Source: Pseudomonadota bacterium
Lineage (GTDB): Bacteria > Pseudomonadota > Alphaproteobacteria > Rhodobacterales > Rhodobacteraceae
DNA length: 44,671 nt
Assembly (NCBI GenBank): GCA_020161655.1
Contig: JAIUPC010000021.1
Location: 1-44,671 of the forward strand
Reading direction: 5' to 3'
How positions within the stretch are numbered: position 1 is the first letter of the stretch; each line of letters starts with the position of its first letter. The notes under the pieces were generated by a model. It did no database searches and had not been told where the DNA came from. It worked only from the letters and a program-made list of their open reading frames with translations. Both the position numbers and the translations under genes were made by a program. This document shows, piece after piece, positions 28,914 through 43,746 of the stretch.

Positions 28914-28934
28914 ATGCAATCACAGCATCGTGAT

Positions 28935-30005
28935 ATGCGGGGGAAACGGTGGAGATCCAGTCATTTGCCGGATCATGTGACTTTTTATGTGAACGGGCCC
29001 GCGAGGCTGCTCAAGGCATGCATCATTTCGGATGCCTTCTTTCCTGACACGCCGACGTCGCTCATCCTGCTCGATCAGTTCGGCTATGATTACAGTCGGC
29101 TGCTGCCGCATGTGAGACAGAAGTTCGAGCGCATCACCTTCTTTCGTGCCGCCGAACGGTCCTATTCGCATGTCGGCCAGTTTGTAGGAACTTACGTCCG
29201 CCGGTACCAGGAACTGGAGTCCCAGTTCGCGCCGAACGGGCATGTCGTCCTGTTCGGACTGCGGTCGCCGATCCAGAAATTCATCATCCGCTGCAACCGC
29301 AAGCTCGGCAACAGTATCGACATCTATGCCGAAAGCATCATGATCGACCGATACTTCGACAGCAGGTTCCGGCGCGACAATCCGGTCAAGAGATACCTGC
29401 GCCGATGGTTGTCAGAGGCCTTCGACTATCAGCATGAGTATGACCGCTTCTTCGTACACGTTCCCGAGCTTTACGCCGACGCGCCCCAGTCCACCAAGAT
29501 CCGCAAGATGCCGTCCTTGTTTCGATTGGCGAGCGCGCACAAGTACCTGGACCTGCTTCTGCGTGACGTCGATCTGGAGGGACTGGACAAGTTCGACACG
29601 GTTCTGATCGGACAGCCGCTGTCGAATTTCGACGGGTTCGTGTCTCCGCAGGCCGAGGAGGAGATTTTGCGCCGCATCATCGGCGATCGCCGGGTACTGG
29701 TATTGCCGCATCCGAACGAACGATTGGACCAGCACAACAAATACGCCGTTCTGCCGCAGGCGCGGGTCATGGCGAGGGGGTTGCCGAACGATCTGATCTG
29801 CCAACACCTGCGCCCGGCGAAGACGATCACCTACGCCTCGACCATGGGGATCGAATACGCGCTCTCGAACCCTGAGTCCGCAAACCTCTTCTACCCAGTG
29901 CTGCCGCCGAGCCTGGATCTGTTGAAACGCTACGAGCAACACGTCCCGAACATGGTTGTAGACGACAACTGTGTCATTCCCGGTGCCGGAGCGCAGCTTT
30001 CATAA
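28935..30005 (+). CDS. Polysialyltransferase-like glycosyltransferase
   Basis: A soluble 356-residue protein with features of the bacterial polysialyltransferase/GT52-like family: VTFYVNGPARLLKA near the N-terminus, VLFGLRSPIQKF, the motif VLVLPHPNERLD (HP motif for sugar nucleotide), the fold part RPAKTITYASTMGIEYAL and FYPVLPP near the C-terminus. Such enzymes transfer sialic acid or related sugars from CMP or UDP donors to a growing surface glycan. The start is uncertain: ATG 28914, ATG 28935 or GTG 28977 (which would begin directly at TFYVNGP). No sialic acid synthesis genes are in the window, so the sugar is unknown. It opens the plus-strand part of the polysaccharide cluster. Confidence 0.6.
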   Translation: MRGKRWRSSHLPDHVTFYVNGPARLLKACIISDAFFPDTPTSLILLDQFGYDYSRLLPHVRQKFERITFFRAAERSYSHVGQFVGTYVRRYQELESQFAPNGHVVLFGLRSPIQKFIIRCNRKLGNSIDIYAESIMIDRYFDSRFRRDNPVKRYLRRWLSEAFDYQHEYDRFFVHVPELYADAPQSTKIRKMPSLFRLASAHKYLDLLLRDVDLEGLDKFDTVLIGQPLSNFDGFVSPQAEEEILRRIIGDRRVLVLPHPNERLDQHNKYAVLPQARVMARGLPNDLICQHLRPAKTITYASTMGIEYALSNPESANLFYPVLPPSLDLLKRYEQHVPNMVVDDNCVIPGAGAQLS

Positions 30006-30110: not shown

Positions 30111-31178
30111 ATGGAGCGAGTTTCGCGCACCGTCACGGCAATTGGACCGGAGCATTTGGACAAGACTTCACCAAGACTGAACTGGGTCTGCCCACGCTGC
30201 CGTGGCGTGCTTGCGAAAGCGCCGGAAAGCTATCGCTGCGAAGCCTGCGCGGGCAACTATCCGATTGTTGCCGAGATGCCGGATTTCCGCATCGATCAGC
30301 CAGCATGGATCGACTTCGGACGCGACCGGGACCGGGCCTTTGCCATTGACGAGATCGTGCGGCGGGACGGACTCGAAGCAGCAATATTCGACGTCTTCAA
30401 GACCTCGCGCAGGTTCGCAGAGCAAAAGTGCCACTTCCGGACCAGACAGGTCCAGGCAGGAGCGGACAAGTACACTCTTCAACTCGACGGCTGGCTTGCC
30501 GATATCCAGGCCGATCCGGTGATTGAGGTCGGGATTGGCCCAGGCCAGCTTGCCGTTGCGCTGGCGCGGCGCGGCTACGTCCCCCACGGCATCGACGTGT
30601 CGATGGAGTGGCTGGCCGTCGCCAAACACTGGGTTCGCGAGCAGGGTGTGGAGCCGGTCTTCGCTGGCGCGATGGCCGAGGGGCTACCCTTGCCGGACGC
30701 ATCGGTCAGGTCCTATGTCTCGCTCGATGTGATCGAGCATGTCGGCGATCAGGGGCACTATCTCGCTGAAATGACCCGGATTCTGAAGCCGGGCGGCCAT
30801 TTCGCCCTTGTCACGCCAAACCGCTACAGTCTCTCGCCGGAGCCCCATGTCGGGGTCTGGGGCGTGGGCTACCTGCCGCGACCGCTTCAGGCGAAATGGG
30901 TGCGGATGCGGGCCGGTGTTTCCTACGATTTCAACCGATTGCTCAGCGTCTGGGAACTGCAGAAGCTGTTTCGCGAGAGCGGCGGGCTGGTACCGCAGAT
31001 CGACTTCCCGGAGATCGCCGAGGCTGAGATATCGCTCTTTGGGCCCGGCAAGGCCAAGCTTGCGCGGCTTTACAACCAGCTGTCGCGGACCGCTCTGTTC
31101 CGTCTGATTGCGCCGCTCGGTGGCGCCTATTACCGCGTCACCGGTCGCAAGCCCGTCGAATTGGCGGCTGCCGAATGA
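30111..31178 (+). CDS. Zinc-ribbon class I SAM methyltransferase
   Basis: The N-terminal 50 residues form a zinc ribbon (VCPRCRGVL, YRCEACAGNYPIV). The SAM fold follows with motif I VIEVGIGPGQLA (about 138-149), an acidic end GIDVSMEWL, LDVIEHVGD and LKPGGHFALVTPN. The later segment VGVWGVGYLPRPLQAKWV also appears in a second methyltransferase of this cluster (34523-35542). Such enzymes methylate sugars, lipids or quinones; in a polysaccharide cluster a sugar or polyisoprenyl target is likely. ATG 30111 follows GGAG. The stop overlaps the flippase start by 4 bases. Confidence 0.8.
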   Translation: MERVSRTVTAIGPEHLDKTSPRLNWVCPRCRGVLAKAPESYRCEACAGNYPIVAEMPDFRIDQPAWIDFGRDRDRAFAIDEIVRRDGLEAAIFDVFKTSRRFAEQKCHFRTRQVQAGADKYTLQLDGWLADIQADPVIEVGIGPGQLAVALARRGYVPHGIDVSMEWLAVAKHWVREQGVEPVFAGAMAEGLPLPDASVRSYVSLDVIEHVGDQGHYLAEMTRILKPGGHFALVTPNRYSLSPEPHVGVWGVGYLPRPLQAKWVRMRAGVSYDFNRLLSVWELQKLFRESGGLVPQIDFPEIAEAEISLFGPGKAKLARLYNQLSRTALFRLIAPLGGAYYRVTGRKPVELAAAE

Positions 31179-32581
31179 TCTTCGTCGGGGGCATCCAGGT
31201 TCTGATCCTTCTGATCGCGCTCGTCAGGGGCAAGGCTTTGGCCATCATGCTTGGTCCCGAGGGCGTTGGTGTGATCGGCACGGTCGACCAGTTCATCATC
31301 ACCGTCGCGCAGGTCTGCGCGCTTGGCCTACCCTTTGCGGCAATGAAGTCCATGTCTGCCGCGCATTCCCAGGGCGAGGAGGCCTTTCGCAGGACTTTCG
31401 CTGTCTTCGCGCGAATTCTCCTTTCGATCTCCCTTGTGGTCGCTGTTGTGGCGTCAAGTTCGGAACTCCTGGCCCACACCGTCTTCAGTGGCCTGAGCGA
31501 ATACCGTGACGTGCTTGTGCTGGCGCTCTTCGCTGTGCCATCGATGATCCTGACGATCCTGATCGCGCAAACCTTCGCATCCGCTCAGATGCCGAAGGCC
31601 GCTTCCGTCTACAACCTCATCTTCGCCCTGGTGCTCGCCGTTGCAGCACTCGTCGGTGCAGCGTTGGGCGGGGTTTGGGGGTTCTATTTCGGAACGGTGC
31701 TGGCCGGCGTCGCCGTGCTCGTCGTCGCCTTCCTGTGGTTGCGCCGGAAAATGGGGCTCGGCCCTCTCGACAGAGCGACACCTGTCTGGCGCGAGATGAG
31801 CGGCAAAAGGCTTGTCGTGGATACAGCGGTTTCGGCCTACGCCAACCTCGTTTCCGCCTCTGCCCTGCTGCTTCTGGTCCGTTACGTCGTCCTCCGGTCG
31901 GAAGGCGAGGCGGAGGTCGGCTTGCTTCAATCCGCACTTGGAGTGGCGCTCAGCGCAGGTTCGATTCTGGCGACGCTTTCGGCGCTTTACCTCGCTCCTT
32001 CGCTGAATCGCAAAGCGCTGCCGGACGAAAAGTTCCGCAGCGCTGCATCCTTCGCCAATACCGCAGCCTTCTACGTTGTGCTTGGCGGCGTCCCGGTCGC
32101 ACTATTCCCCGGACTCGTGTTGACGATCCTCTATACCGGCGCCTTCACCGGCGCCGCACTGATGCTGATCCTGTGTCTTATCTGGCAGGGACTGTCGCTG
32201 GTGATGACAACCTATTCGCACCTGCTCGTCGGCATCGACAGGCCGCTGACAGTGACGGTGACGACCCTTGTGTCCGTTGCGATCGGAATCGCGGCGGTCT
32301 TTTTTCTTGTGGAGCATTGGGGGGCCGTCGCGGCACCCTTGGCGCTTATCCTCACGGTCGTGGTCCGGGCTGGTCTGATCGCCGCCCTTCTCGTTGCGCA
32401 GAATGCCATGCCGATGCCCTGGGGTGTGCTTGCGCGCTACGTGTTTGTCACTGCGGCGATTGCTGGTGCGGCCTATCTCTTCGACATGTCGGTCACAGTC
32501 CCGGATGCGGCCGGCTTCGCCCTTCGCGGGCTCTACGCGCTTGCCGTGACCGGGCTGATGTGGGCCTGGAACCGCGCTTAG
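31175..32581 (+). CDS. Wzx-type polysaccharide flippase (MATE/MVF superfamily)
   Basis: A 468-residue inner-membrane protein with about 12-14 hydrophobic segments. The first part shows GKALAIMLGPEGVGVIGTVDQ, typical of O-antigen translocases, followed by repeated long helices up to the final YALAVTGLMWAWNRA. It would move undecaprenyl-linked repeat units across the membrane. ATG 31175 overlaps the methyltransferase stop (ATGA). Its TAG stop overlaps the stop of the converging GT2 gene (32578-32581), leaving no room for a terminator between them. Confidence 0.85.
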   Translation: MIFVGGIQVLILLIALVRGKALAIMLGPEGVGVIGTVDQFIITVAQVCALGLPFAAMKSMSAAHSQGEEAFRRTFAVFARILLSISLVVAVVASSSELLAHTVFSGLSEYRDVLVLALFAVPSMILTILIAQTFASAQMPKAASVYNLIFALVLAVAALVGAALGGVWGFYFGTVLAGVAVLVVAFLWLRRKMGLGPLDRATPVWREMSGKRLVVDTAVSAYANLVSASALLLLVRYVVLRSEGEAEVGLLQSALGVALSAGSILATLSALYLAPSLNRKALPDEKFRSAASFANTAAFYVVLGGVPVALFPGLVLTILYTGAFTGAALMLILCLIWQGLSLVMTTYSHLLVGIDRPLTVTVTTLVSVAIGIAAVFFLVEHWGAVAAPLALILTVVVRAGLIAALLVAQNAMPMPWGVLARYVFVTAAIAGAAYLFDMSVTVPDAAGFALRGLYALAVTGLMWAWNRA

Positions 32582-33483
32582 AAGAGCGCGTCGCAGGCCC
32601 GCCCCGGTCCGGCCCAGGACCCGACCGCCTCGCCCGCCGACCAGGCGAGGCACAACGCCGCGAGCGCGCCGAGAGTGCCGAGACCGGGCCAGCCGTCGCG
32701 GCAGGCAGAACGCATGTGCCGGGCGATCAGCAGGGCAGGAACCGCAGGCGCGCCCAGCCGGTAGCGCCACCTCTGCGCCCTAGCGGCGAGCGCCGCACGG
32801 GTGCCACCGAAACATCGGGCATAGCGGTAGCGACTGGCCAGCAGCGCGCCAAGCCGGTAGCGGGTGTGCATCCGGACCTGCATTTCGGGCACCATCACCA
32901 AGGCGGTTCCATTCTCCTGCAGCCGCTTCTGGCAGAAGGGCTTGTTCAGCCCTTCGGCGGCGAGAATGTCGCCGCAGAACTTCCTGAGACTGCCTGCGGG
33001 CAGGATCATGTTGTTGCCGGAAAGGTCGCGCGTGGCGCCCTGCGCGATCACCTCCGGCCGGAAAGCGGCGTATTCGAAGATCTGGGCTGCCCGGTCTGCT
33101 GCCGAGCCGGAAGCGGATGTCACCGAACCGCTCAGCGCCGCGCCGGGGTATCTGCCAAGCGCCGCAAGCGCCGCGCCGATCCAGCCCGGCAGAGGCACGG
33201 CCTTCGGCTCAAGAAAGGCGAGCGCCCGGCCACGCGCGACGGCGGCGCCCTCCGCCTTCAGCCGGGGCATGTTCAGGCCGGGCCGCAAGAGCGTTGCAAC
33301 TCCGGTCCGGCCGGGCACCGTGGCCGCGCCAGGCCGGCCATCGACGAGAAGCACCTCGACCTCCGCGATCTGCGGTTCCGCTGCCAGGGCCGCCAGCACC
33401 GCATCCGGCGTTTCGGCCGGGTGGCGCACGATCAGGATGATGCTCAGCCACGGACCGGCCGCGGTGTCGGCGCGCGTGCCCAT
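32578..33483 (-). CDS. GT2-like glycosyltransferase (paralog 1)
   Basis: A 301-residue protein: GT-A-like start LSIILIVRHPAETPDAVLAA, middle FLEPKAVPLPGWIGAAL at the place where other paralogs have an acidic pair, LSGNNMILPAGSL, and then a basic segment RYRYARCFGGTRAAL. It ends in two hydrophobic parts with CLAWSAGEAVGSWAGPGRA. The position expected to hold the metal-binding acidic pair reads EP, so catalysis may differ. ATG 33483 overlaps the oxidoreductase stop by one base (TGATG). It is the last gene of the minus-strand operon and converges with the flippase. Confidence 0.7.
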   Translation of the reverse strand: MGTRADTAAGPWLSIILIVRHPAETPDAVLAALAAEPQIAEVEVLLVDGRPGAATVPGRTGVATLLRPGLNMPRLKAEGAAVARGRALAFLEPKAVPLPGWIGAALAALGRYPGAALSGSVTSASGSAADRAAQIFEYAAFRPEVIAQGATRDLSGNNMILPAGSLRKFCGDILAAEGLNKPFCQKRLQENGTALVMVPEMQVRMHTRYRLGALLASRYRYARCFGGTRAALAARAQRWRYRLGAPAVPALLIARHMRSACRDGWPGLGTLGALAALCLAWSAGEAVGSWAGPGRACDALF

Positions 33484-34526
33484 CAGGGCGCATTCTCCAG
33501 CGTCACGCGGCTGCCGGTCTCGGCGGAGCGGTAGACCGCTTGAGCGATCTCGATCGACCGGAACCCGTCGACCGCGCTGGCGATCGGCCCGGCTGGCGCA
33601 CGGCCTTGGGTCAGGGCGATGAAATCGGCCATCTCCTCCATCAGGGTTTGTACTGCCGTCGACTGCCAGCCCCGGAACTTCTCGGCGAAGATCGTCGGCA
33701 GATAGAAGTTCCGCCGTTTGCGACGTGCACCGCCGGGGCGATCCATCGTAACTTCCATGAAATGCATCGGCGCGTAATAGGCCCGCGCCATGCCCCGCGT
33801 TCCATAGGCCTCGACGTAGAAGTGGTAGCCTTTCCACTCCGTCCAGCTGGCCGCGACGCTGCCGATGGTTCCGTCCATCCCGCCGAGCAGGGCCATGCCG
33901 TTGTCCTCGACCCGGTCGAGCTGCCAGGTCTTGTCCTGGGTCCGCCCGCAGACATCCTTCACCGGGCCCATCAGATGGTGCACGAGGTCGATCATGTGGA
34001 TGCCGTTGTCGAGCAGCGCGCCCCCGCCCATCACATCCTTGGCGTACATCCATTCCGCCTTGAACTCGGAGAGGCCGGTATGGCCGGTATAGCCGCGCAC
34101 GTGCGACAACTCGCCCAGACGGCCGGAGGCGATGCTGGCGCGCAGTTCCTTGATTGCCGGGAAATAGCGGTGATTGAAACCGACGGTGAGGATGCGGCCC
34201 CCCTCCCGCGCCGCCGCGATCATCCGGCGGCAGGCCTCAAGCGTCGGCGCCATCGGCTTTTCGACGATGACATGCTTGCCGGCCCGGATTGCCGCGACGG
34301 CGATGTCCTCATGCGTATTGGGCGGGGTGCTTACGACCACCGTGTCGACCGTCTGATCGGCCAGTGCCTCGTCGAGAGAGGCATAGGCCCTGCCCCGCCC
34401 GGCCAGGGCGGCGGCACGATCAGGCGCCAGGTCGAACACACCGGCAAGTGCCGAGCCATCCAGCCTGTCGATGGCCGCCTTGCGCAATTGGGCGATTGCC
34501 CCCGCACCGATGATCGCAAATCTCAC
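33483..34526 (-). CDS. Gfo/Idh/MocA-family oxidoreductase (first of three)
   Basis: A 347-residue NAD(P)-dependent enzyme: Rossmann start FAIIGAGAIAQ, STPPNTHEDIA and the conserved VIVEKPMAPT. The C-terminal domain has FNHRYFPAIKEL and LLDNGIHMIDLVHHLMG with the typical catalytic Asp/His. These enzymes oxidise or reduce sugar ring positions, often in NDP-sugar pathways. GTG 34526 overlaps the methyltransferase stop by 4 bases (GTGA). It lies directly before GT2 paralog 1, and a comparable Gfo-GT2 pair recurs at 37622-39420. Confidence 0.85.
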   Translation of the reverse strand: MRFAIIGAGAIAQLRKAAIDRLDGSALAGVFDLAPDRAAALAGRGRAYASLDEALADQTVDTVVVSTPPNTHEDIAVAAIRAGKHVIVEKPMAPTLEACRRMIAAAREGGRILTVGFNHRYFPAIKELRASIASGRLGELSHVRGYTGHTGLSEFKAEWMYAKDVMGGGALLDNGIHMIDLVHHLMGPVKDVCGRTQDKTWQLDRVEDNGMALLGGMDGTIGSVAASWTEWKGYHFYVEAYGTRGMARAYYAPMHFMEVTMDRPGGARRKRRNFYLPTIFAEKFRGWQSTAVQTLMEEMADFIALTQGRAPAGPIASAVDGFRSIEIAQAVYRSAETGSRVTLENAP

Positions 34527-35542
34527 TGACCTGTCCTTTCACTTCCAAGGCTTCCGGCGGGACGTTGCGCCGATATCTCGAACACCGGCCCAAGCCGCAA
34601 CAACCCGGCGCGCGCGATCGGAACCTCGCGCAAGAGCCGGTAGATGCCGATCAACGCCCGCTTCGCCCCGCCCGTCGCCGCCGCCGCCCGTTCCGCCGGA
34701 ACCGACATCGGCGCGGTCCTGACCGCAGTGAAACCGGCGGTTCGCAGTGCGCGCGCGATGCTGCCCGGTGTCTGCATCGACAGAAAGCGCAGCGTGTCGA
34801 TGCCGCGCCGTGCCGTCACGTAGCGCCGGCGCAGGGCATTCGGGAGAAAGCCGACACCCCAGAGCCCAGCGGGCGGGTATACCGCAAGCGTGTTGCGGTT
34901 GGCTCCGGTAGCGTAGAGCGCCCCGCCGGGTTCAAGCAGCCGGTAGAGGGCGTCCGCCGTCTGCGGAAGATCGGGCACATGCTCGAAAAGATCAGTCACC
35001 GCGATCCGGTCGAAGCTCGCCTCGGGGAAGGGCGGTCGCGCGATGTCGGCACAGACGAGATCCGCGTGCAGGCCCTCCTCTTCCAGCCGCTTCGCGGCGA
35101 TGACCAGCCAGCGCAAGGCAATATCGGTGCCGGTGACCGGCAGTCCCGCCCGCGCCGCCGCAACGACAAGCCCGCCTGCGCCGCAACCGGCATCCAGAAC
35201 CCGCCGCGCCGGGGCAAGCTGCCGCAGCGCCTCGCGGCCGCGCGCCTCTCCGGCGACGACGTAATCTGCATACCTGCGGGCCATGGCGGGCGAAACGTCG
35301 TCGGTGACGCGGTAGTATTCCGCCAGCGTCTCGGCAAAGCTGTGGTTTCGCGCGAATTCATGCAGCCGCGCGGCCTTCTCGCGCTCGTCCTCCAGGCTGA
35401 GGTACCGGTCAGGGGCAAGGCGGAAATCCGGGATGCCGCAGAGGATCGGGTAGTCCGCGCCGCAGCCTGAGCAGCGATAGCCGTGCGTGTCCCGCAGAGC
35501 CGAAGCGCGGCAGCGCGGGCAGAGATAGGCGCCCGCCGTCAT
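34523..35542 (-). CDS. Zinc-ribbon class I SAM methyltransferase (second)
   Basis: A 339-residue protein with zinc ribbon YLCPRCRAS and YRCSGCGADYP, then SAM motif VLDAGCGAGGLV, TDLFEHVPDLPQ and LLEPGGALYATG. The segment PPAGLWGVGFLPNALRRRYV is close to VGVWGVGYLPRPLQAKWV of the protein at 30111, so they look like diverged paralogs. ATG 35542 overlaps the GT2 stop (ATGA). Role: methylation of a sugar or lipid-linked intermediate, inferred. Confidence 0.8.
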   Translation of the reverse strand: MTAGAYLCPRCRASALRDTHGYRCSGCGADYPILCGIPDFRLAPDRYLSLEDEREKAARLHEFARNHSFAETLAEYYRVTDDVSPAMARRYADYVVAGEARGREALRQLAPARRVLDAGCGAGGLVVAAARAGLPVTGTDIALRWLVIAAKRLEEEGLHADLVCADIARPPFPEASFDRIAVTDLFEHVPDLPQTADALYRLLEPGGALYATGANRNTLAVYPPAGLWGVGFLPNALRRRYVTARRGIDTLRFLSMQTPGSIARALRTAGFTAVRTAPMSVPAERAAAATGGAKRALIGIYRLLREVPIARAGLLRLGPVFEISAQRPAGSLGSERTGQ

Positions 35543-36441
35543 GTGCTGCCTCCGGTTTGACCTGCAAGCGCGTCGGCATAGCCTGCAATCTCGCCCAGGC
35601 ACCAGTTTGCCAGGAAAAGGTAGAACAGCCCCAACGAACCGCGGCTTTCCTTCCGCAGTTCCGGCCGCGACAGGATCTTGCGCGTCTGCTTCAGCGCGAA
35701 GATCGGGAAGGCGGCAGGCGAGGCGGCGAGCATGGCCGCCCGCGTGAGAGCGGGGCGCCCCTCGCTCCGGTGCCGTCCGAAGACGCGCCCGTGGCGGCGG
35801 CGCTGGCGCATGAAGGCGCGGGCGGAGTAGCGGTTCCGGTGCAGGACCTCAAGGCCGGGGACCAGTTCAAGGGTCAGCCCGGTGGCGCGGAAGCGGCGGT
35901 GATAGTTCGGTTCCCAGAAGCCGTCCGCCAGCAGGTCCGCGCAGTCGAGGACGGCCGCGCGCCGGTAGATCGCATTGTCGGCCGAGAGGTCGTCCACCGC
36001 GCGCCTTTCGGCGATGGGCCCGGCATCGGCGTAGCGCAAAAGCTGGATCGCGCGCGTCACGCGGTCGCTGCTCTCGTCGGCGAGGATGGCTCCGCCGAAG
36101 GCGGCGGCCCGGGCGTCCGCGACGGCAATGAGCGACAGCGCCCGCGCAAGCCAGCCGGGCTGCGGCGGGCAATGTGCCGTAAGCGTCGCAACCCATTCGC
36201 CCCGCGCTGCGACAAATCCGTCGCGCCAGAGTTCGGGGATCAGCGCTTCGGCCCGGCCCCTGATGACGTGCAGATCGGGCCGTGCGGGCAACGAAGCCGG
36301 CAGGGGGTCGTCGGCGGCAATGCAGAGAAGGATCTCCAGCCGCCCGGCTGGGTCGGCGGGCAGGGCGTCGAGGATGTCCGGAAGATTCGCTTGCGCTCCC
36401 TGCACGGCGATGGCCAGGCTGAGGATCGGGGCACGGTCCAT
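35539..36441 (-). CDS. GT2-like glycosyltransferase (paralog 2)
   Basis: A 300-residue member of the local GT2 family: LSLAIAVQGAQANLPDILDA at the start, TLTAHCPPQPGWLARAL where the acidic pair should be, LSADNAIYRRAAVL, the basic motif RRRHGRVFGRHR and a hydrophobic tail ending LANWCLGEIAGYADALAGQ. The acidic pair has become Thr-Ala, so activity may be altered or lost. ATG 36441 is joined to the GT4 stop by TGATG. It sits between GT4 and the methyltransferase. Confidence 0.7.
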   Translation of the reverse strand: MDRAPILSLAIAVQGAQANLPDILDALPADPAGRLEILLCIAADDPLPASLPARPDLHVIRGRAEALIPELWRDGFVAARGEWVATLTAHCPPQPGWLARALSLIAVADARAAAFGGAILADESSDRVTRAIQLLRYADAGPIAERRAVDDLSADNAIYRRAAVLDCADLLADGFWEPNYHRRFRATGLTLELVPGLEVLHRNRYSARAFMRQRRRHGRVFGRHRSEGRPALTRAAMLAASPAAFPIFALKQTRKILSRPELRKESRGSLGLFYLFLANWCLGEIAGYADALAGQTGGST

Positions 36442-37622
36442 CAGGCTGCCCTCGCCACGGCCTCGAGCGTCGCGCGGGTCATTTCCGCCGCCTGATCCCA
36501 GGTGTTCCGTGCGGTCTCCGGGATGGCCCGGGCGCGCAGTCCGTCGGCAAGCTGGCGGTCGATGACCAGCCGTGCGATCGCGTCGGCGATGCTCTCGACG
36601 GAATAGGGGTCGAAGCCCAGCCCGGCCGCGCCGGCCACCTCCATCACCGCGCCGCCCGCCGCGCCGAGAACCGGCGCGCCGCAGGACATCGCCTCGAGCG
36701 CCGGTAGTCCGAACCCCTCCGAGAGCGAAGGCAACACCAGCGCCTGCGCCTCGGTGTAGAGGGCCGCGAGATCCGCGTCGGAGAGATAGCCGGGAAAACG
36801 CACCCGTGCGGCCAGGCGGGGTGAGGCGTCGCGCAGGCGGCAAAGCTCCTCATAGATCGAATGGAAACCGCCGCCTTTCGGATCGCCCGACATCACCAGC
36901 ACGAGATCCGAGGTTTCCGCCCGCGCCAGCACTTTGTCGAAGGCTTCGAACAGCCGCACGAGGTTCTTGTGCGGGGCGAAGCCGCCGACGTAGATCAGGA
37001 AACGTGCCGAGGGATCGAGCCCGGCCGCCCGCCGTGCCGCCGCCCGTCGCACCGGGTCCCCGACCGGGGCAAAGACCGGTGACGCGCCTTCGCAGATCAC
37101 GTCGATCCGGCTTCCGTCGATGCCAAGATACTCTTCCATTTCCGCCTTTGCAGACTGCGAAACGGTGAGCAGGCGATTTGCCGACCACTGCGCGAGCCGG
37201 CACTTCAGCGTCCATGCCAGGCGCGGTTTCCAGTTGGGAAAGACGAGTTCGGGAAAATGCTCGGCAATGGCGTCGTGAAATGTGACGACATTGGCGAGGC
37301 CGCGAGGCGGTGGGAACCACGAATAGACCGCCGGATAGAAGAGGACATCGGCCCGCGCCGCGGCCGCGGCGCGTCGGAAGGCCAGAACGTCGCGAATGCC
37401 GCGGCGGCCATCCGCAGTGGCGGCCTCCACGACCCGCGTGGTCGTCGCCACCCTGAGGACAGAGGTTCGCGGGCCTAGCGTGTCGGTTGCGATCCCTTCA
37501 TCGCTGAGAAGAATGTAGTCGTTGTCGGCGTCCGACCGGCTCATCGCGCCGAGAAGTTCCCGGGTGAAGCGACCGAAGCCACGATTGTTGCCCCAACACG
37601 AGGCGTCCACCGCGATCCGCAT
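36441..37622 (-). CDS. GT4-type (GT-B) glycosyltransferase
   Basis: A 393-residue enzyme: N-terminal domain IAVDASCWGNNRGFGRFTRE with VVTFHDAIAEHFP; C-terminal domain with FLIYVGGFAPHKNL, RVRFPGYLSDADLAALY and the donor-binding E-x7-E motif EGFGLPALEAMSCGAPV. GT4 enzymes retain the anomeric configuration and often use UDP- or GDP-sugars (mannose, glucose, rhamnose). It is the only GT-B enzyme of the minus-strand operon. ATG 37622 overlaps the next stop by one base (TGATG), at the expected domain start. Confidence 0.88.
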   Translation of the reverse strand: MRIAVDASCWGNNRGFGRFTRELLGAMSRSDADNDYILLSDEGIATDTLGPRTSVLRVATTTRVVEAATADGRRGIRDVLAFRRAAAAARADVLFYPAVYSWFPPPRGLANVVTFHDAIAEHFPELVFPNWKPRLAWTLKCRLAQWSANRLLTVSQSAKAEMEEYLGIDGSRIDVICEGASPVFAPVGDPVRRAAARRAAGLDPSARFLIYVGGFAPHKNLVRLFEAFDKVLARAETSDLVLVMSGDPKGGGFHSIYEELCRLRDASPRLAARVRFPGYLSDADLAALYTEAQALVLPSLSEGFGLPALEAMSCGAPVLGAAGGAVMEVAGAAGLGFDPYSVESIADAIARLVIDRQLADGLRARAIPETARNTWDQAAEMTRATLEAVARAA

Positions 37623-38437
37623 CACTTCCAGCTCCCTGCACTCTGTCCCGGTCCGAGGATCAGCCCGGTCAATTCCCCCGCGCTCCAGGCCGAGGCCATG
37701 ATGACGATCCAGGGCAGTTCCGGCAACCACCCGCGCGGCGGGCTGGCGGCGATGGCGGCGCTGGCGGCCCGCGCGGACAGGACAGGCATGGCCACCAGCG
37801 CCCTGAGCACGCAGCCGACCCGGCTGCCTTCGCGTCCCGCGCCGAAGATGCGACCGTGACCGTAGCGGGTTGCGAGGCGCGCGCCCTGACGGTCCGGGCG
37901 GGCATAGACCGAACCGAGCGCCGGCTCCTTCACCACTTTCAGGCCTGCGTCCTGAAAGCCGTGGGCAAGCTTGTGTTCGATGATCCCCTCTCCCGGCGCG
38001 AGTGCCGCCAGGACGGCGGCACGCCGCAGCGCCATCACGTTGCCGGGCGCGGTCGGCTCTTTTCGCCGCCCGTCGAAGCGACCATATTCCAGCCGCCCGA
38101 GCGCCCGGAACCGCGCCGGCAGGGCGGGGTCGATGGCGACCGGCCCCCAGGCCATCGCCACCTCGTCGCGCGCGAAGGCCTGCCGCAGCCCGTCCAGCCA
38201 GGTGGAGTTCGGCAGGGACGTATCCTCGACCATCAGGACGATATCAGCCTCCGCCTCGCGGAGCGCGCGGAGCCGGCGTTCGGGCAGCGTTTCGTTCTGC
38301 CCGGCCCGGCGCATCGCGCGAAGCGGCACCGCGGCTTCCGCCGCCGGTCCAGCCATTGCCGCCGCCAGCGCGTCGCAGGCGGCGGCGCCGGTCAGTTCCA
38401 GTACCACAACCGCATAGGGACTGCGCTGCCCCGTCAT
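37622..38437 (-). CDS. GT2-like glycosyltransferase (paralog 3)
   Basis: A 271-residue protein: YAVVVLELTGAAACDAL at the start, VLMVEDTSLPNSTWLDGL with the acidic pair Glu-Asp, TAPGNVMALRRAAVL, the basic motif ATRYGHGRIFGAGR and the hydrophobic tail ASAWSAGELTGLILGPGQS. It lies directly after a Gfo oxidoreductase with a 4-base overlap (ATGA at 38434-38437). The acidic pair suggests an active enzyme. Confidence 0.72.
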   Translation of the reverse strand: MTGQRSPYAVVVLELTGAAACDALAAAMAGPAAEAAVPLRAMRRAGQNETLPERRLRALREAEADIVLMVEDTSLPNSTWLDGLRQAFARDEVAMAWGPVAIDPALPARFRALGRLEYGRFDGRRKEPTAPGNVMALRRAAVLAALAPGEGIIEHKLAHGFQDAGLKVVKEPALGSVYARPDRQGARLATRYGHGRIFGAGREGSRVGCVLRALVAMPVLSARAASAAIAASPPRGWLPELPWIVIMASAWSAGELTGLILGPGQSAGSWK

Positions 38438-39420
38438 TGGCGCACCGTGCGTTCGAGGAAAAGGTCCCGCAGGGCGGCGACCTCGACTGCCTCTTCCGCC
38501 GTGATCGGGCATCCGGCGGCGCCTTGCGCGGCGGCATAGACCCGCGCGGTCAGCTCACGCAAGCCGGGATAGGCCGGTTCGCGGCGAAGCGTCCGGCCCG
38601 CGAGGTTGCCGCTCGCCGCGCCGAGCAGGCCGAAGGCATCAGCGAAAGGCCGCAGCGCCTTGGTGGCCCGGCTGGCCGTGCCATCGCGAAACCGCGCGAA
38701 GCCATGGAACAGGTCGGCGGTCCAGGTCCCTTTGCTGCCTCTGACCACCAGCGACGCCTCCGTCGGCCGCGCCGAGAAACTGAGGGCGATCCGCAGGCTG
38801 GCATCGCCGATGGGGGCGCTGAGCTGCCAGCCGCCCGGACCCATCGGTTCGATCTTCCAGTCTAATGTCGCAAGCCGTACTCCGGGCCAGAACCGTTGTG
38901 CGATTGAGACCGGATGGGGCAGGATGTCCGCTGCCAGCGCCGGCAGTCTCTCCGGGTCCGCGCCCTCGGCGCCTGCCGAAAAGAACGTCATCTCCACCTG
39001 AACCGGTGGCCCGCTCCGTGGAAGGCCCGCGAGGATCCTCTCGACCGCGCGCTGGAAGGCATATTGATGCACCGGGCAAAGCACCACCTTCGCCGCCGCC
39101 GCCATGTCGCAGAGTTCGCGCGTTTCCGCCGCGGTCAGGGCGAGGGGCTTTTCGACGAAGACATGGACGCCGGACGCGAGCGCAAGTTCGATCGCTTCGC
39201 GGTGCATCCCGGTGGGGCCGCAGACATGCAGAATGTCCGGTCGAACCGCCCGCAGCAGTTCCGGCAAGGAGGCAAATGCCGTTTCCGCCGATCCGGCAAG
39301 GCGCGCTGCGCGCCCCGGTTCGGGATCGGCGACGCCCACGACAGAGGCGCCGATCCGGCGGGCGGCATGGGCGTGCCACCGGCCCATGAGACCCGCGCCG
39401 ACCACAGCAACTCGTGGCAT
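38434..39420 (-). CDS. Gfo/Idh/MocA-family oxidoreductase (second), first gene of the operon
   Basis: A 328-residue protein: Rossmann motif VAVVGAGLMGRWHAHAA, DILHVCGPTGMHREAIELAL and VFVEKPLALT, then VHQYAFQRAVERIL in the C-terminal domain. It is more diverged from the other two oxidoreductases in its second domain. ATG 39420 opens the seven-gene minus-strand operon; the 193-bp divergent gap to the GT2 at 39614 should carry promoters for both. A weaker reading start upstream (39675) would overlap the next gene and has no conserved sequence. Confidence 0.85.
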   Translation of the reverse strand: MPRVAVVGAGLMGRWHAHAARRIGASVVGVADPEPGRAARLAGSAETAFASLPELLRAVRPDILHVCGPTGMHREAIELALASGVHVFVEKPLALTAAETRELCDMAAAAKVVLCPVHQYAFQRAVERILAGLPRSGPPVQVEMTFFSAGAEGADPERLPALAADILPHPVSIAQRFWPGVRLATLDWKIEPMGPGGWQLSAPIGDASLRIALSFSARPTEASLVVRGSKGTWTADLFHGFARFRDGTASRATKALRPFADAFGLLGAASGNLAGRTLRREPAYPGLRELTARVYAAAQGAAGCPITAEEAVEVAALRDLFLERTVRQ

Positions 39421-39613
39421 GGCACCGGCAACGATCCGATCATCCTGCCCGGTCGCGCTCACGCCCCGCGGTTCCCCAATTTCGGAGCGGGGCAAGACCC
39501 GGCGGTGCCGCGGGATCGAGGCCGGTCCACCGTGCAAGTTGGATGCAGCACGTCTCTTGCCAATTCCCGTTTCATGACCAATGCTTTCGCCCGAACCAAC
39601 CCAAGGGGTCCGC

Positions 39614-40531
39614 GTGAATTTCTCAGCAGACAGCGCCGCATCCGCTGAGCTATCCGTCATAATTCCATCGGTCAACAGCTATGACGACCTCGATGGCTGC
39701 CTGAAGGCGCTGGAAACCGGGCAGGATGCGCGGCTTGAAATCATCGTCGCCGACCGCCTCGGCGAACAGGTCCGCCACTTCATCCGCCGGGAACACCCCG
39801 GCGTCACGGTGATCGCTGTGGCGCCGGACACCAGCATCCCCCGGATGCGCGCCATCGCCATCGGGAAGGCCTCGGCCCCCGCCGTCGCGGTGATCGAGGA
39901 CCATGTGATCGTGCCGAAAGGATGGGCGCGGGCGATGCTCGACGCCCTGGCGACGGCGGGCGAGGCGGTCGGCGGCACGGTCGACAACGCCGCGACCGGC
40001 ACCTGGGTCGACTGGTCCGCCTTCCTTTGCGAATACAGTTCCACCCTGCCGCCTCTGCCAGAGGGACCTGCCGATTGGTTGCCGGGCAACAACGTGATCT
40101 ACAGGGCCGAGACGTTGCGCCGGCTTGCCCCCGTCCTCGACGAGGACAAGTGGGAGAACCGGCTGCACGACGCGATCCGCGGCGCCGGCGGAACGCTGAC
40201 CCGGCGGCCCGAAATCGTCGTCGGCCACAAGATGCACTACAGCTTCGGCCTCTACATGTCGCAGCGCTACCTCTACTCGCGCAGCTATGCCGGGGCGAAG
40301 TCCGGGAACATGCCGTTGTCGCGGCGGCTGCCAATCGGCCTTGCCGCCCTCGTGTTGCTGCCGCCGATGATGTTTCTGCGCACGATCCGCAACGTGCGCA
40401 CCAAAGGCCGCTACCAGCGCGAACTGCTGCGGGCGCTGCCGCTCCTCGTTCCCTTCTGCCTTGCATGGGGCGCGGGCGAGGCGTTCGGCTACCTTTTCGG
40501 TCCCGGCAAGGCGCTGAGCCGGGTGCGCTGA
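39614..40531 (+). CDS. GT2-like glycosyltransferase (paralog 4), divergent
   Basis: A 305-residue protein with a clear GT-A start LSVIIPSVNSYDDLDGCLKA, DTSIPRMRAIAIGKA, VAVIEDHVIVPKGWARAM with the acidic pair Glu-Asp, and ADWLPGNNVIYRAETLRR. The basic motif QRYLYSRSYAGAK and the tail CLAWGAGEAFGYLFGPGKA follow. It seems the best-preserved of the four paralogs. GTG 39614 has AAGGGG six bases upstream and is preferred; ATG 39581 adds 11 residues. It converges with the methyltransferase at 40543 (11-bp gap). Confidence 0.8.
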   Translation: MNFSADSAASAELSVIIPSVNSYDDLDGCLKALETGQDARLEIIVADRLGEQVRHFIRREHPGVTVIAVAPDTSIPRMRAIAIGKASAPAVAVIEDHVIVPKGWARAMLDALATAGEAVGGTVDNAATGTWVDWSAFLCEYSSTLPPLPEGPADWLPGNNVIYRAETLRRLAPVLDEDKWENRLHDAIRGAGGTLTRRPEIVVGHKMHYSFGLYMSQRYLYSRSYAGAKSGNMPLSRRLPIGLAALVLLPPMMFLRTIRNVRTKGRYQRELLRALPLLVPFCLAWGAGEAFGYLFGPGKALSRVR

Positions 40532-40542
40532 GCCGAGGGCGC

Positions 40543-41466
40543 TCAAGGCTTCCGCGCTGTCACGATTCCGGCGCCGATCCGGTAGACCAGGCGACCGCCC
40601 TGGCGAAGAACCTTGCCGCAATCTTCCCAATAGGCAGCCTTGAGCCGGCCAAGCTCTTCCGGCGTTGCCCGCGCCATGAACTTGCGGGACCAGGTCGACA
40701 GGGTCGTCTCGAGTGTCCAGAATTCCTCGACCGTGGGGATCACGAACTGCCGGCCCGTCCAGTCGCTCGCCAGATCGGTGAAGCCCGCCGCGCCGATCAT
40801 TCGCTTCAGCCGCGACACCGGATTGCGGACTTCGGAGGCCCAGGTCGCGATCATCTCCTCGTCGGTGGTGTGCAGATGCTCCCGCACATGGTTGACAAGA
40901 TTGCCAGCGGCGCTCCGCTCCAGACCGCGGCGTCGCGCCAGAAGCGCAGTGGCGTGCGACGCGGCCCGCGCGGCACCGGCGGCCGACAGCAGCGGCGGAC
41001 CGCTGCCGATCGCGACGGCAATAACTCCGCCGGGAGCAAGCATGCGAAACGCCTCGACGGCCGCGCTGTCGGGATCGGGAAAGTGGCTGTAGGCGTAAAG
41101 CGACACATAGGCGTCTGCGGACCCTGCGGGTAGCCCCGTCGCCGAGGCATCGCCCTTCACAAAGCTGACCCGGCTGTCCAGCCCGGCGGACCGCGCCCGC
41201 TCCCGCGCTGTCTTCAGCATTCCATCGGACAGGTCTATCCCGACCACCTTCGTCTCTGGCCCCGCGGCCGCGGCGGCGCGTGCGACAATTCCGGTGCCAC
41301 AGCCCATGTCGTAGATCAGCTTTCGCTTGGCAGGCGCCACGGCGCGGGCAAGGGCCTCGGCCACCGGGAGGGTGTAGCGGTCGGCAAGATCGTCGAATGC
41401 TCCGGCTACATCATCGTAGCTTTCGGCGTCGCGCTGCTTGTAGTCGGCATCGGGCATGGTCTTCAT
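40543..41466 (-). CDS. Class I SAM methyltransferase (UbiE-like fold)
   Basis: A 307-residue protein without a zinc ribbon: AGAFDDLADRYTLPVAEAL, SAM motif IYDMGCGTGIVARA, VVGIDLSDGMLKTA, FVKGDASATGLPAG and APGGVIAVAIGSG. The C-terminal part (about 180-300) is longer than usual, with WTGRQFVIPTVEEFW. It may methylate a sugar or a lipid carrier, but a quinone-type substrate is possible. It is coupled to the Gfo oxidoreductase upstream (ATGA, 41463-41466). Confidence 0.8.
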   Translation of the reverse strand: MKTMPDADYKQRDAESYDDVAGAFDDLADRYTLPVAEALARAVAPAKRKLIYDMGCGTGIVARAAAAAGPETKVVGIDLSDGMLKTARERARSAGLDSRVSFVKGDASATGLPAGSADAYVSLYAYSHFPDPDSAAVEAFRMLAPGGVIAVAIGSGPPLLSAAGAARAASHATALLARRRGLERSAAGNLVNHVREHLHTTDEEMIATWASEVRNPVSRLKRMIGAAGFTDLASDWTGRQFVIPTVEEFWTLETTLSTWSRKFMARATPEELGRLKAAYWEDCGKVLRQGGRLVYRIGAGIVTARKP

Positions 41467-42551
41467 CCTTGCATTGCTTTGTCGCGAGGCGGCAGGACAT
41501 CCAGTGGAAGACGCACGCCGCCTGCGTCGCTCGAGTCGTAGGCGGCCAGCATCAGCGCCAGGGTGTTGATGTTGTCGGCTGCGTCGCAGGGCGGGGTTCC
41601 GCCTGTCCGCAGCGCCGCGACCATCCTGCCGAGGAGCTTTGCCGTGGAATGCGGAAAGAGGTCGCCGGGATCCGTCGCCAGCTTGCGCCGCCGGTTGCCT
41701 TTCAGCAGATGGGCCGAGGCGCTGGGTGCAAGATCAAGCTGCACAAACGGCTTGCGCGCGCCGCCCCGGATTCCGAAGGCAAGCTGGGCCTGCCCGCCAA
41801 GCCGTGTCTCGACGCAGGCCTGCGTTCCGTCAAGGCGGATGTCGAGATAGCGATGCGGTCCGCGCGACAGCCGATCGAGCGTGATGTGGGCCACGCGGTC
41901 GCCCGAAAACTCGAGCTGTATCAGGTTCAGGTAGTCCGGCCCGCCCGGACGGTCCGGCTTTGGCATCCGGGCCGATATCGCCCATGGCTCTTCGCCGAAG
42001 AAATAGCGGCAAAGGTCGAGCGCATGGGTTCCGAACTCAAAACAGGTGCGTCGTTTGCTCGCGCCACGCCAGCCCTCTTCGGTCGCTTCGGTCACGAAGA
42101 ATGTCTGGTTGATCGAGATGAAGAGCAGGTCGCCGAAATCCGTCGAGCCGATCGCGTTCCGCGCCGCCTCGTGCACATTCATGAAGCGGAACTCGTTGTT
42201 GACGACCACGTGTCGGCCGGCCGCCCTCGCCCTCGCAATCACGGTCCGGCCCTCGTCCATCGTCAGGACAAAGGGCTTCTCGCAGAAGACATGCGCGCCG
42301 CGCTCCAGCGCATCGAGGGTAAGTGCATAGTGGCTGTCGGGCGGCGTCACGATGGCGATGATGTCGGGCCTCGTGGCCGACCAGAGTTCGGCGGTGCTGC
42401 GGAACACCGGAAACGGAAACGCCGCCGGATCGGCGACGGGGTCGACCCCGCCGACGATGTCCAGGCTGCCGACCTTGCGGATGGCCGGCAGATGGATGTT
42501 GTGCGCCGCCGCGCCCAGTCCGATCACCGCGATTTTCAGCCTTGCCGTCAT
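41463..42551 (-). CDS. Gfo/Idh/MocA-family oxidoreductase (third)
   Basis: A 362-residue protein: Rossmann start IAVIGLGAAAHNIHLPAI, IVTPPDSHYALTLDAL and VFCEKPFVLT, then the C-terminal domain with NNEFRFMNVHEAARNAIG and FEFGTHALDLCRYFFG carrying the usual His/Asp pair. A sugar dehydrogenase/reductase role is inferred from the cluster. ATG 42551 starts the protein; the longer frame from 42608 overlaps the upstream PepSY gene and lacks similarity. It follows the PepSY gene by 10 bases and may be cotranscribed with it. Confidence 0.87.
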   Translation of the reverse strand: MTARLKIAVIGLGAAAHNIHLPAIRKVGSLDIVGGVDPVADPAAFPFPVFRSTAELWSATRPDIIAIVTPPDSHYALTLDALERGAHVFCEKPFVLTMDEGRTVIARARAAGRHVVVNNEFRFMNVHEAARNAIGSTDFGDLLFISINQTFFVTEATEEGWRGASKRRTCFEFGTHALDLCRYFFGEEPWAISARMPKPDRPGGPDYLNLIQLEFSGDRVAHITLDRLSRGPHRYLDIRLDGTQACVETRLGGQAQLAFGIRGGARKPFVQLDLAPSASAHLLKGNRRRKLATDPGDLFPHSTAKLLGRMVAALRTGGTPPCDAADNINTLALMLAAYDSSDAGGVRLPLDVLPPRDKAMQG

Positions 42552-42561
42552 GTCCACTGCC

Positions 42562-43746
42562 TCAGAGCCTTCCCGCCGCCAGGACCAGCGCCAGAACCGC
42601 AGCGCCAATGCCGATCCAGTTGCCGATCCCGGAACCCTTGAAATAATGGCCCCAGCCGGAGCGCGCCGGCCGTCCGCGAACCTTGAATTCCTTGGTCAGC
42701 CGCTCGGCGCAGATCATTGCGCCCAGAATGCCAAGCGCCGCAAGGCCAAGGCCGAAGGCGAGCCAGAGCAGCCGTGTGGGCAGGCCAAGAGCCGTACCAT
42801 AATGCAGCACCCGCACCGCTTCGAACAGCCGCAGCCTGCCGCCCATCGCGGCAGCGGGATGGGTCATCATCAGGGTCATGTTGGCGGTGTCGGAATAGCC
42901 GACGCTGGCGGTCGGGCGCACAAGGACTGTGTCGTCGGCGCCGCGCACGGCAACCGGCTTGCCGGGGCCGTTGGGAAAGGTCACTTCGCTGACGACGATG
43001 CCGGGCAGCGCGCTTCGGGTCTGTTCGACGATGCGGTCGAGGCTCTTGCCGTCGAATCCGTCAGGCAGTGGCGTAGACCCTGCCGCCTCTACCTTGGGGG
43101 CCATCATCATAGGCGGGCCGAGCCCGACCATCTCGCTCAGGAAGACTGCCGAGGTCGCTATGGTGATTATCAGAAACGGCAGCGACCACACCGCCGTCAG
43201 GCGGTGAAGATCGCTCAGCATGGCGCGCCTGCTGCCTGAGAAGCGGGGTTTCCGGAAGTAGCCGGTCCAGAACCGGCGGTAGAGCAGCACCCCGGCGATC
43301 ACGGTGGCGCCGAGGGGCAGGCTCAATGCTGAAACTGCGATCATGACGGTCGTGCGCTCGGTCGAAAGCGAACGGTGCAGTTCCCGCAGCACCTGACGGA
43401 CGGTCACGGCGGCGCCCGTGCCGGTGACGGAGCCGGAGTACGGGTCCACCCAGACGAATACCGCGCTGCGATCGGGTTTCACGAGACGCAGGCGGTCGGC
43501 GTAACCCGCTCCGGGGAAACGTATAAGCACGTCGGGCCGCGCCTCGGGCATGGCGGCTGTCGCGGCATCGAAGCTGCGGCCGAGCGGCCCTTTGCCGGCC
43601 TTTCCCGGCTCGACCCGCATTGCAGGCGTCGTGAGCCAGTCGATTTCGTCCGCGAAGACCGACAGGGACCCCGTGATCGCGAGAAAGATGATCGCCACGG
43701 AAAAGAACAGGCCGAGGAAACTGTGGATCCGTCGCGCCGACATCAT
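42562..43746 (-). CDS. PepSY-associated TM protein (PepSY_TM family)
   Basis: A 394-residue membrane protein: helix 1 IHSFLGLFFSVAIIFLAITG, a periplasmic PepSY-type part with GSVTGTGAAVTVRQVL, ELHRSLSTERTTVMIAVSAL, DLHRLTAVWSLPFLIITIAT, VLHYGTALGLPTRLLWLAFG and a last C-terminal helix. The His residues near helix starts (HxxxL, H in LHR) are typical of these heme-like or reductase-type proteins. Homologues are often associated with siderophore or iron uptake (PiuB-like). No TonB receptor is visible in the window, so the connection to the polysaccharide genes may be accidental. Confidence 0.8.
   Translation of the reverse strand: MMSARRIHSFLGLFFSVAIIFLAITGSLSVFADEIDWLTTPAMRVEPGKAGKGPLGRSFDAATAAMPEARPDVLIRFPGAGYADRLRLVKPDRSAVFVWVDPYSGSVTGTGAAVTVRQVLRELHRSLSTERTTVMIAVSALSLPLGATVIAGVLLYRRFWTGYFRKPRFSGSRRAMLSDLHRLTAVWSLPFLIITIATSAVFLSEMVGLGPPMMMAPKVEAAGSTPLPDGFDGKSLDRIVEQTRSALPGIVVSEVTFPNGPGKPVAVRGADDTVLVRPTASVGYSDTANMTLMMTHPAAAMGGRLRLFEAVRVLHYGTALGLPTRLLWLAFGLGLAALGILGAMICAERLTKEFKVRGRPARSGWGHYFKGSGIGNWIGIGAAVLALVLAAGRL

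Follow-up and report, generated by a model that had tools for sequence, protein, structure and literature searches.

The window analyzed here (the whole of a 44,671-nucleotide stretch, positions 1 to 44,671 of contig JAIUPC010000021.1 of the Rhodobacteraceae assembly GCA_020161655.1) carries, interspersed with other genes between positions 32578 and 40531, four genes for glycosyltransferases (GTs) of family GT2 whose products A, B, C and D have in common a C-terminal helix with the motif W-x-x-G-E-x-x-G; we refer to this helix as the tail and to its bearers as tailed GTs. The genes and their tail motifs are:

32578..33483, minus strand: GT A, a tailed GT2 of type A
35539..36441, minus strand: GT B, a tailed GT2 of type B
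37622..38437, minus strand: GT C, a tailed GT2 of type C
39581..40531, plus strand: GT D, a tailed GT2 of type D, with an ATG start and an alternative in-frame GTG at 39614, eleven codons later
32620..32643, minus strand: tail motif of A, WSAGEAVG
35581..35604, minus strand: tail motif of B, WCLGEIAG
37664..37687, minus strand: tail motif of C, WSAGELTG
40466..40489, plus strand: tail motif of D, WGAGEAFG

A first-pass annotation of the window had described four paralogous GT2-like proteins with a common tail, and an all-against-all BLAST comparison in a fixed search space bore this out. A matched D (31% identity over 308 residues, E-value 2e-22) and B (31% over 231 residues, 4e-16), and B matched D (28% over 293 residues, 4e-15); C matched D over 145 residues of the C-terminal half including the tail (28%, 8e-7) and A mainly with its own C-terminal half (9e-5 to 0.01), and the match between B and C was weak (0.006 to 0.09). 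Based on these alignments the homology among the four proteins reaches beyond the GT-A part, and for C it lies mostly outside it. The GT-A fold itself was also found. In Pfam searches only D scored above the PF00535 cut-off (28.4 versus 23.3 bits), B fell 0.1 bit short of it, C matched PF13641 only and below cut-off, and A had no match at an E-value of 0.1; among 101 family members, 74 matched PF00535 at an E-value of 0.01 or better. The same genome encodes a fifth tailed GT on a separate contig (2641-3582 of L029, contig C8), with an E-D-R site, near a GT4 relative and adjoining a Gfo/Idh relative and, as judged by eye, a GMC-type oxidoreductase.

A GT2 subfamily set apart by its tail

Conservation of the tail was assessed in 118 full-length members from 55 loci, which are not independent cases because close relatives are included. 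They were drawn from 60 loci including the window, from which four contig repeats (L072, L075, L077 and L087) had been removed before the count; also left out were two strong hits truncated by the start of a contig (L088, L092) and one by its end (L116), and 27 weaker GT2 matches that stop short of the tail. The selection favours tails, since its profile covers the tail and matches were required to extend that far; of the 121 strong domain hits, 120 extend into the tail, the sole exception being the L116 hit. The W..GE..G motif is exact in 114 of the 118 members, with the Glu and the last Gly present in all 118 and the first Gly and the Trp in 116 each, so that the tail residues are more conserved than the catalytic base (an acid in 107) and the first acid of the DxD motif (98). 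Four of the six most conserved columns lie in the tail, the other two being W115 and G132 of the core. The motif is exact in all 22 members of types A, A' and B (A' is introduced below), including 11/11 of type B; the tail of B, which had been called a looser match, reads NWCLGEIAGY and has the same W..GE..G.

The proposal that the tail defines a GT2 subfamily is supported by its confinement. When a profile of the tail only (63 positions) was run against 397 genomes of the phylum, with the best 15 candidates per genome scored and the counts hence lower bounds, it gave strong matches at no fewer than 10 places in three genomes, all of them members of this family, followed by a gap in E-value from 1.4e-14 to 2.6e-4. 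In the window's own genome the same profile gave exactly five matches at E-values up to 10, and five C-terminal stretches that were searched had no match in Pfam or NCBIfam even at an E-value of 10. We thus rejected both the tail as a general feature of GT2 enzymes, the profile having no strong match outside the family in the 397 genomes or the own genome, and the tail as a known domain, none of the five stretches having matched Pfam or NCBIfam. The weak matches of the 397-genome search (12 of 22 places, E-values 2.6e-4 to 0.0097) were taken as chance. Five of these (L122, L125, L128, L130 and L131) fall in proteins that we take to be NRAMP-type transporters, in which a helix like AAWGLGEVAGY resembles the tail, probably by convergence; the remaining ones resemble short or other frames. 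A literature text search with four written forms of the tail motif found none, and the titles and abstract openings that were covered, a range that takes in few subscription papers, held no description of the family.

Four types and their active sites

A quick maximum-likelihood tree of the 118 members gave starred clades for B (11 members), C (12), A (3) and a further type, A' (8). The types cluster with their counterparts in other genera, and B, C and D also with those of another class, rather than with their neighbours in the window; A, B, C and D are four old, separate types. A tree joining A with A' had a log-likelihood 21.7 higher (p = 0.82 in the approximately unbiased test). In one genome (G008) B, C and D are intact, with ratios of nonsynonymous to synonymous substitution rates of 0.23, 0.20 and 0.16, respectively, and A is partial, being cut by the contig start. 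The types also differ at their catalytic positions, a feature that the first-pass annotation, sound as to a subfamily marked by its tail, had overlooked for A and B:

33202..33210, minus strand: DxD position of A, reading EPK
36172..36180, minus strand: DxD position of B, reading TAH, first acid absent
38219..38227, minus strand: DxD position of C, reading EDT
39896..39904, plus strand: DxD position of D, reading EDH
32941..32943, minus strand: catalytic-base position of A, Lys
35911..35913, minus strand: catalytic-base position of B, Glu
37976..37978, minus strand: catalytic-base position of C, Glu
40154..40156, plus strand: catalytic-base position of D, Glu

C and D hold both the DxD site and the base in an altered form, A lacks an acid at the base and B lacks the first acid of the DxD site. 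The base position is Lys in 11/11 members of A plus A', and an acid in the other 107 (102 Glu and five Asp); Lys also stands there in a further A' (genome G497) and in the partial A of G008. No acid stands at the first DxD position in 11/11 B, in 8/8 of the related B' and in one A', and the third position is His in 10/11 B. Type C has E-x-T in 12/12, and the metal-ligand position of type A is Lys, Ser, Arg or Gly. We compared the pockets in rows from which near-duplicates had been omitted (nine A/A', eight B, nine C and 11 D): the A/A' rows have invariant E137, Y138, G156 and N158 in addition to the base Lys, and the B rows keep the base Glu and have 40 invariant columns. These changes suggest that A and B have an altered chemistry or a supporting role, and for A we lean towards altered chemistry in view of the invariant pocket residues.

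In Alpha- as well as Gammaproteobacteria the four types are repeatedly found as a group, accompanied by genes for Gfo/Idh enzymes, methyltransferases, a GT4 and a flippase. The neighbouring genes in the window, with Pfam support for all but the first, are:

28914..30005, plus strand: weakly GT52-like protein (16.2 bits, cut-off 26.1)
30111..31178, plus strand: methyltransferase MT1
31175..32581, plus strand: Wzx-like flippase (Polysacc_synt, PF01943)
33483..34526, minus strand: Gfo/Idh/MocA oxidoreductase Gfo1
34523..35542, minus strand: methyltransferase MT2
36441..37622, minus strand: GT4 glycosyltransferase
38434..39675 (open reading frame as listed), minus strand: Gfo/Idh/MocA oxidoreductase Gfo2
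40543..41466, minus strand: methyltransferase MT3
41463..42608, minus strand: Gfo/Idh/MocA oxidoreductase Gfo3

As the Pfam match of Gfo2 starts at residue 88, its real start is probably well inside the reading frame. A counterpart of this cluster lies in G198, a genome from outside the window's class, where 11 window genes out of 13 had tblastn matches: Gfo3 (56% identity), Gfo1 (54%), MT1 (50%), GT4 (45%), MT2 (40%), Gfo2 (39%), D (37%), B (36%), MT3 (36%), Wzx (34%) and C (30%). A and the GT52-like gene had no tblastn match there at an E-value of 1e-5; the fourth tailed GT of G198 is of type A' by the tree, and one Phenylobacterium locus (L109) has a 47% relative of the GT52-like protein close to the set. 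Among 81 genomes of the G198 genus, searched free of the selection described further below, at least four carry tailed GTs, with a single A', B, C and D in every case, and the other 77 had none at an E-value of 1e-5 among the matches scored (the best 77 candidates per genome, the counts being lower bounds); in one further genome search the best five candidates per genome were scored, again giving lower bounds. In this genus G497 has a divergent C, G459 has B on another contig, and L166 and L167 have genes identical to Marinobacter-titled loci. Complete sets were also found in the window itself, Aliiroseovarius (L073), Marinicaulis (L107), Thiotrichaceae (L105), Phenylobacterium (L109, L110) and Sphingomonadales (L111); within their stretches L115 has B, C and D with no A found, L106 has A' and D only and L102 is without B. 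We compared gene order in 12 loci, some of them cut by contig ends (the window, G198, L073, L101, L102, L105, L106, L107, L109, L110, L111 and L115): Gfo2, C and GT4 are consecutive in seven (the window, L073, L107, L109, L110, L111 and L115), and MT2 adjoins Gfo1 in all except L102 and L115. In the window's genus at least one tailed GT was found in 17 of 22 genomes (five in two genomes, two in four and one in 11, with none in five), the types not being assigned singly.

A scan for the D-type peptide pattern gave 45 named loci, mostly metagenome-assembled and titled as groups of Pseudomonadota, Gemmatimonadota, Acidobacteria, Actinomycetota, Planctomycetes and Deltaproteobacteria, assignments that can err for metagenome contigs. 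D types occur outside the set, which makes the four-type set one arrangement among those of a wider subfamily. Six Gemmatimonadota-titled loci (L089, L090, L094, L095, L104 and L113) have three consecutive tailed GTs (B'-like, an EDH/EDN type and D), two of them within one open frame in L089, a possible fusion. A Gloeothece plasmid (L117, 10001-10876) encodes a distant cyanobacterial tailed GT whose site is a classical D-A-D and whose base region reads E-D, perhaps closer to the ancestral state. Elsewhere in the window, 7702-28343 encodes a peptide-type solute-binding protein (7702), a multicopper oxidase (17682), a heavy-metal P-type ATPase (22976), a MerR-type regulator (25077) and an MFS transporter (26958), and a PepSY_TM protein follows the cluster (42562-43746, minus strand).

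Fold and likeness to membrane synthases

The basic motif that had been noted in the four proteins probably corresponds to a known element of GT2 membrane synthases, and is in that case not new:

32806..32835, minus strand: QxxRW-like helix of A, SRYRYARCFG
35776..35805, minus strand: QxxRW-like helix of B, QRRRHGRVFG
37841..37870, minus strand: QxxRW-like helix of C, TRYGHGRIFG
40262..40291, plus strand: QxxRW-like helix of D, QRYLYSRSYA

The pattern R-x-x-x-[GSA]-R occurs in 100 of the 118 members; the residue ahead of it is Q in 57 of the 118 and E in 17. QRYLYSRS of D lies 36 residues past E192, the same spacing at which QRIRWARG of E. coli BcsA follows the Asp of its TED motif (QRIRW in BcsA versus QRYLY in D), and the most plausible identity of the motif is the QxxRW helix of these synthases. 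We base this on spacing, residues and fold ranges because sequence profiles did not align there; a single E. coli BcsA compared with the profile matched at an E-value of 0.03 in the GT-A part only and gave no usable alignment. D alone had only chance matches to PDB sequences (E-values near 1), and a profile of 101 members matched solved chains within its first 162 positions, with one chance exception (E-value 0.78).

The structure alignments comprised 101 rows for D and 82 for A from the members found. In fold comparison D matched over nearly its whole length to membrane synthases (hyaluronan synthase, BcsA and chitin synthase), the GT-A core and the helices following it both aligning, and three helices are predicted to follow the core in D. 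Unlike these synthases, tailed GTs have only about 300 residues and three helices past the core, A, B, C and D are without the FxVTxK gating motif (present in E. coli BcsA at 617), and no N-terminal stretch is among the four most hydrophobic windows of D; tailed GTs are thus probably non-processive. The archaeal mannosyltransferase PcManGT (PDB 6yv7), which has a C-terminal membrane hairpin, gave a fold match over D 21-307 at 15% identity. Polypeptide GalNAc-transferases (GT27) matched the profile over about its first 115 positions; they have the metal motif DxH, of which ExH in D is reminiscent, but their C-terminal part differs and the tailed GTs sit in a bacterial glycan setting. In NCBIfam the commonest match was the mycofactocin glycosyltransferase MftF (TIGR03965; 65 of 101 members at an E-value of 1e-3 or better), which is the best match of A, B and D; their scores (29.8, 33.2 and 34.5 bits, respectively) do not reach its cut-off of 280 bits, C is not among the matches listed, and the five tails by themselves match neither this nor other NCBIfam models. 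The C-terminal helices are hydrophobic, mostly below the classical transmembrane threshold, and from sequence and predicted fold a membrane association of the tailed GTs is plausible.

A putative assembly line for a lipid-linked glycan

We favour, at a probability of about 0.6, the reading that tailed GT2s are membrane-associated enzymes that extend a lipid-linked glycan sugar by sugar, A acting by an altered chemistry or as a non-catalytic partner. A to D form one GT2 subfamily in which a GT-A catalytic domain is predicted to be followed by three C-terminal helices; the first would bear the QxxRW-like motif on the acceptor side and the other two, hydrophobic and ending in the W..GE..G tail, would anchor the enzyme on the inner membrane. 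Together with GT4 they would most likely act in sequence on the lipid-linked acceptor and contribute a different sugar each; the Gfo/Idh enzymes and methyltransferases would modify the sugars and the flippase would export the product. That sugars are added one after another, as the first-pass annotation had supposed, is in keeping with the recurrence of the four types as a set. We regard D and C as probably ordinary transferases whose metal site departs from the standard (ExH and ExT, respectively); B has lost the first DxD acid yet retains the His (10/11) and the base Glu; A may use an altered, perhaps metal-independent, chemistry or give the others non-catalytic support.

Several observations weigh against this reading. 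To our knowledge no activity, substrate or location is known for any tailed member, and no Wzy polymerase or initiating transferase was found among the 19 window proteins, from part of the window, that were scanned with Pfam. D types are also met in the absence of the other three, either with further tailed types or apparently alone, and three of the 22 genomes of the window's genus have D and one other tailed GT; as the 45 named loci were found through D, the other types are visible there only beside it and their co-occurrence is inflated. A and A' are separate in the free quick tree, and they were grouped after the shared Lys had been noticed, with the Lys column in the tree. As for the membrane, the best 19-residue window over the W..GE helix of A to D has a hydropathy of only 1.26 to 1.50, a value of 1.6 is reached anywhere in the last 75 residues by only 66 of the 118 members, so the helices may rest at the membrane surface without spanning it, or pack against the protein itself. 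The fold matches over the tail are given as ranges, not residue by residue, and the alignment of A to the MftF model extends to residue 278, which means that the helices preceding the motif are perhaps not family-specific.

The last point, like the PcManGT match over D 21-307 and the QxxRW-like helix common to BcsA, would also be expected if the tail were an ordinary C-terminal membrane hairpin of small GT2s such as PcManGT, its conserved letters reflecting common ancestry. We consider this possible, if on the doubtful side: the tail profile found nothing strong outside the family in 397 genomes, the matches of the 101-member profile to solved chains, one chance match apart, stay within its first 162 positions, and the near-invariance of the motif in records whose titles name several phyla speaks for a specific role. 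We think it unlikely that A and B are non-catalytic pseudo-glycosyltransferases whose tails pack the four proteins into a membrane complex in which only C, D and GT4 transfer sugars. The Lys at the base in 11/11 A, the first DxD acid missing in 11/11 B (19/19 with B'), the exact tail motif in A, A' and B and the all-or-none presence of the four types across the 81 genomes of one genus (among matches scored) would all suit such a complex, which is purely hypothetical, whereas the invariant pocket of A/A' and the base Glu and invariant columns of B resemble a working, altered pocket. Of similarly low probability, in our view, is a four-subunit membrane GT assembly held by the W..GE..G helix, in which A, with an invariant Lys in place of the catalytic acid, would be a non-catalytic organiser or use a metal-independent mechanism unusual for GT2, and B would be without the first DxD acid. 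A recent tandem duplication in this strain, with the four genes serving dosage only, would fit their closeness and paralogy, but is hardly credible given that the counterparts with which each type groups belong to other genera and, in the case of B, C and D, to another class.

The tailed GTs bear on a family, GT2, that is very large and poorly divided by function, and in which a near-perfectly conserved tail offers an annotation handle for one branch. The four-type set, with its two altered active sites, is a natural test of the division of labour on one glycan, and type A is a test case for GT2 function with a lysine at the base position.

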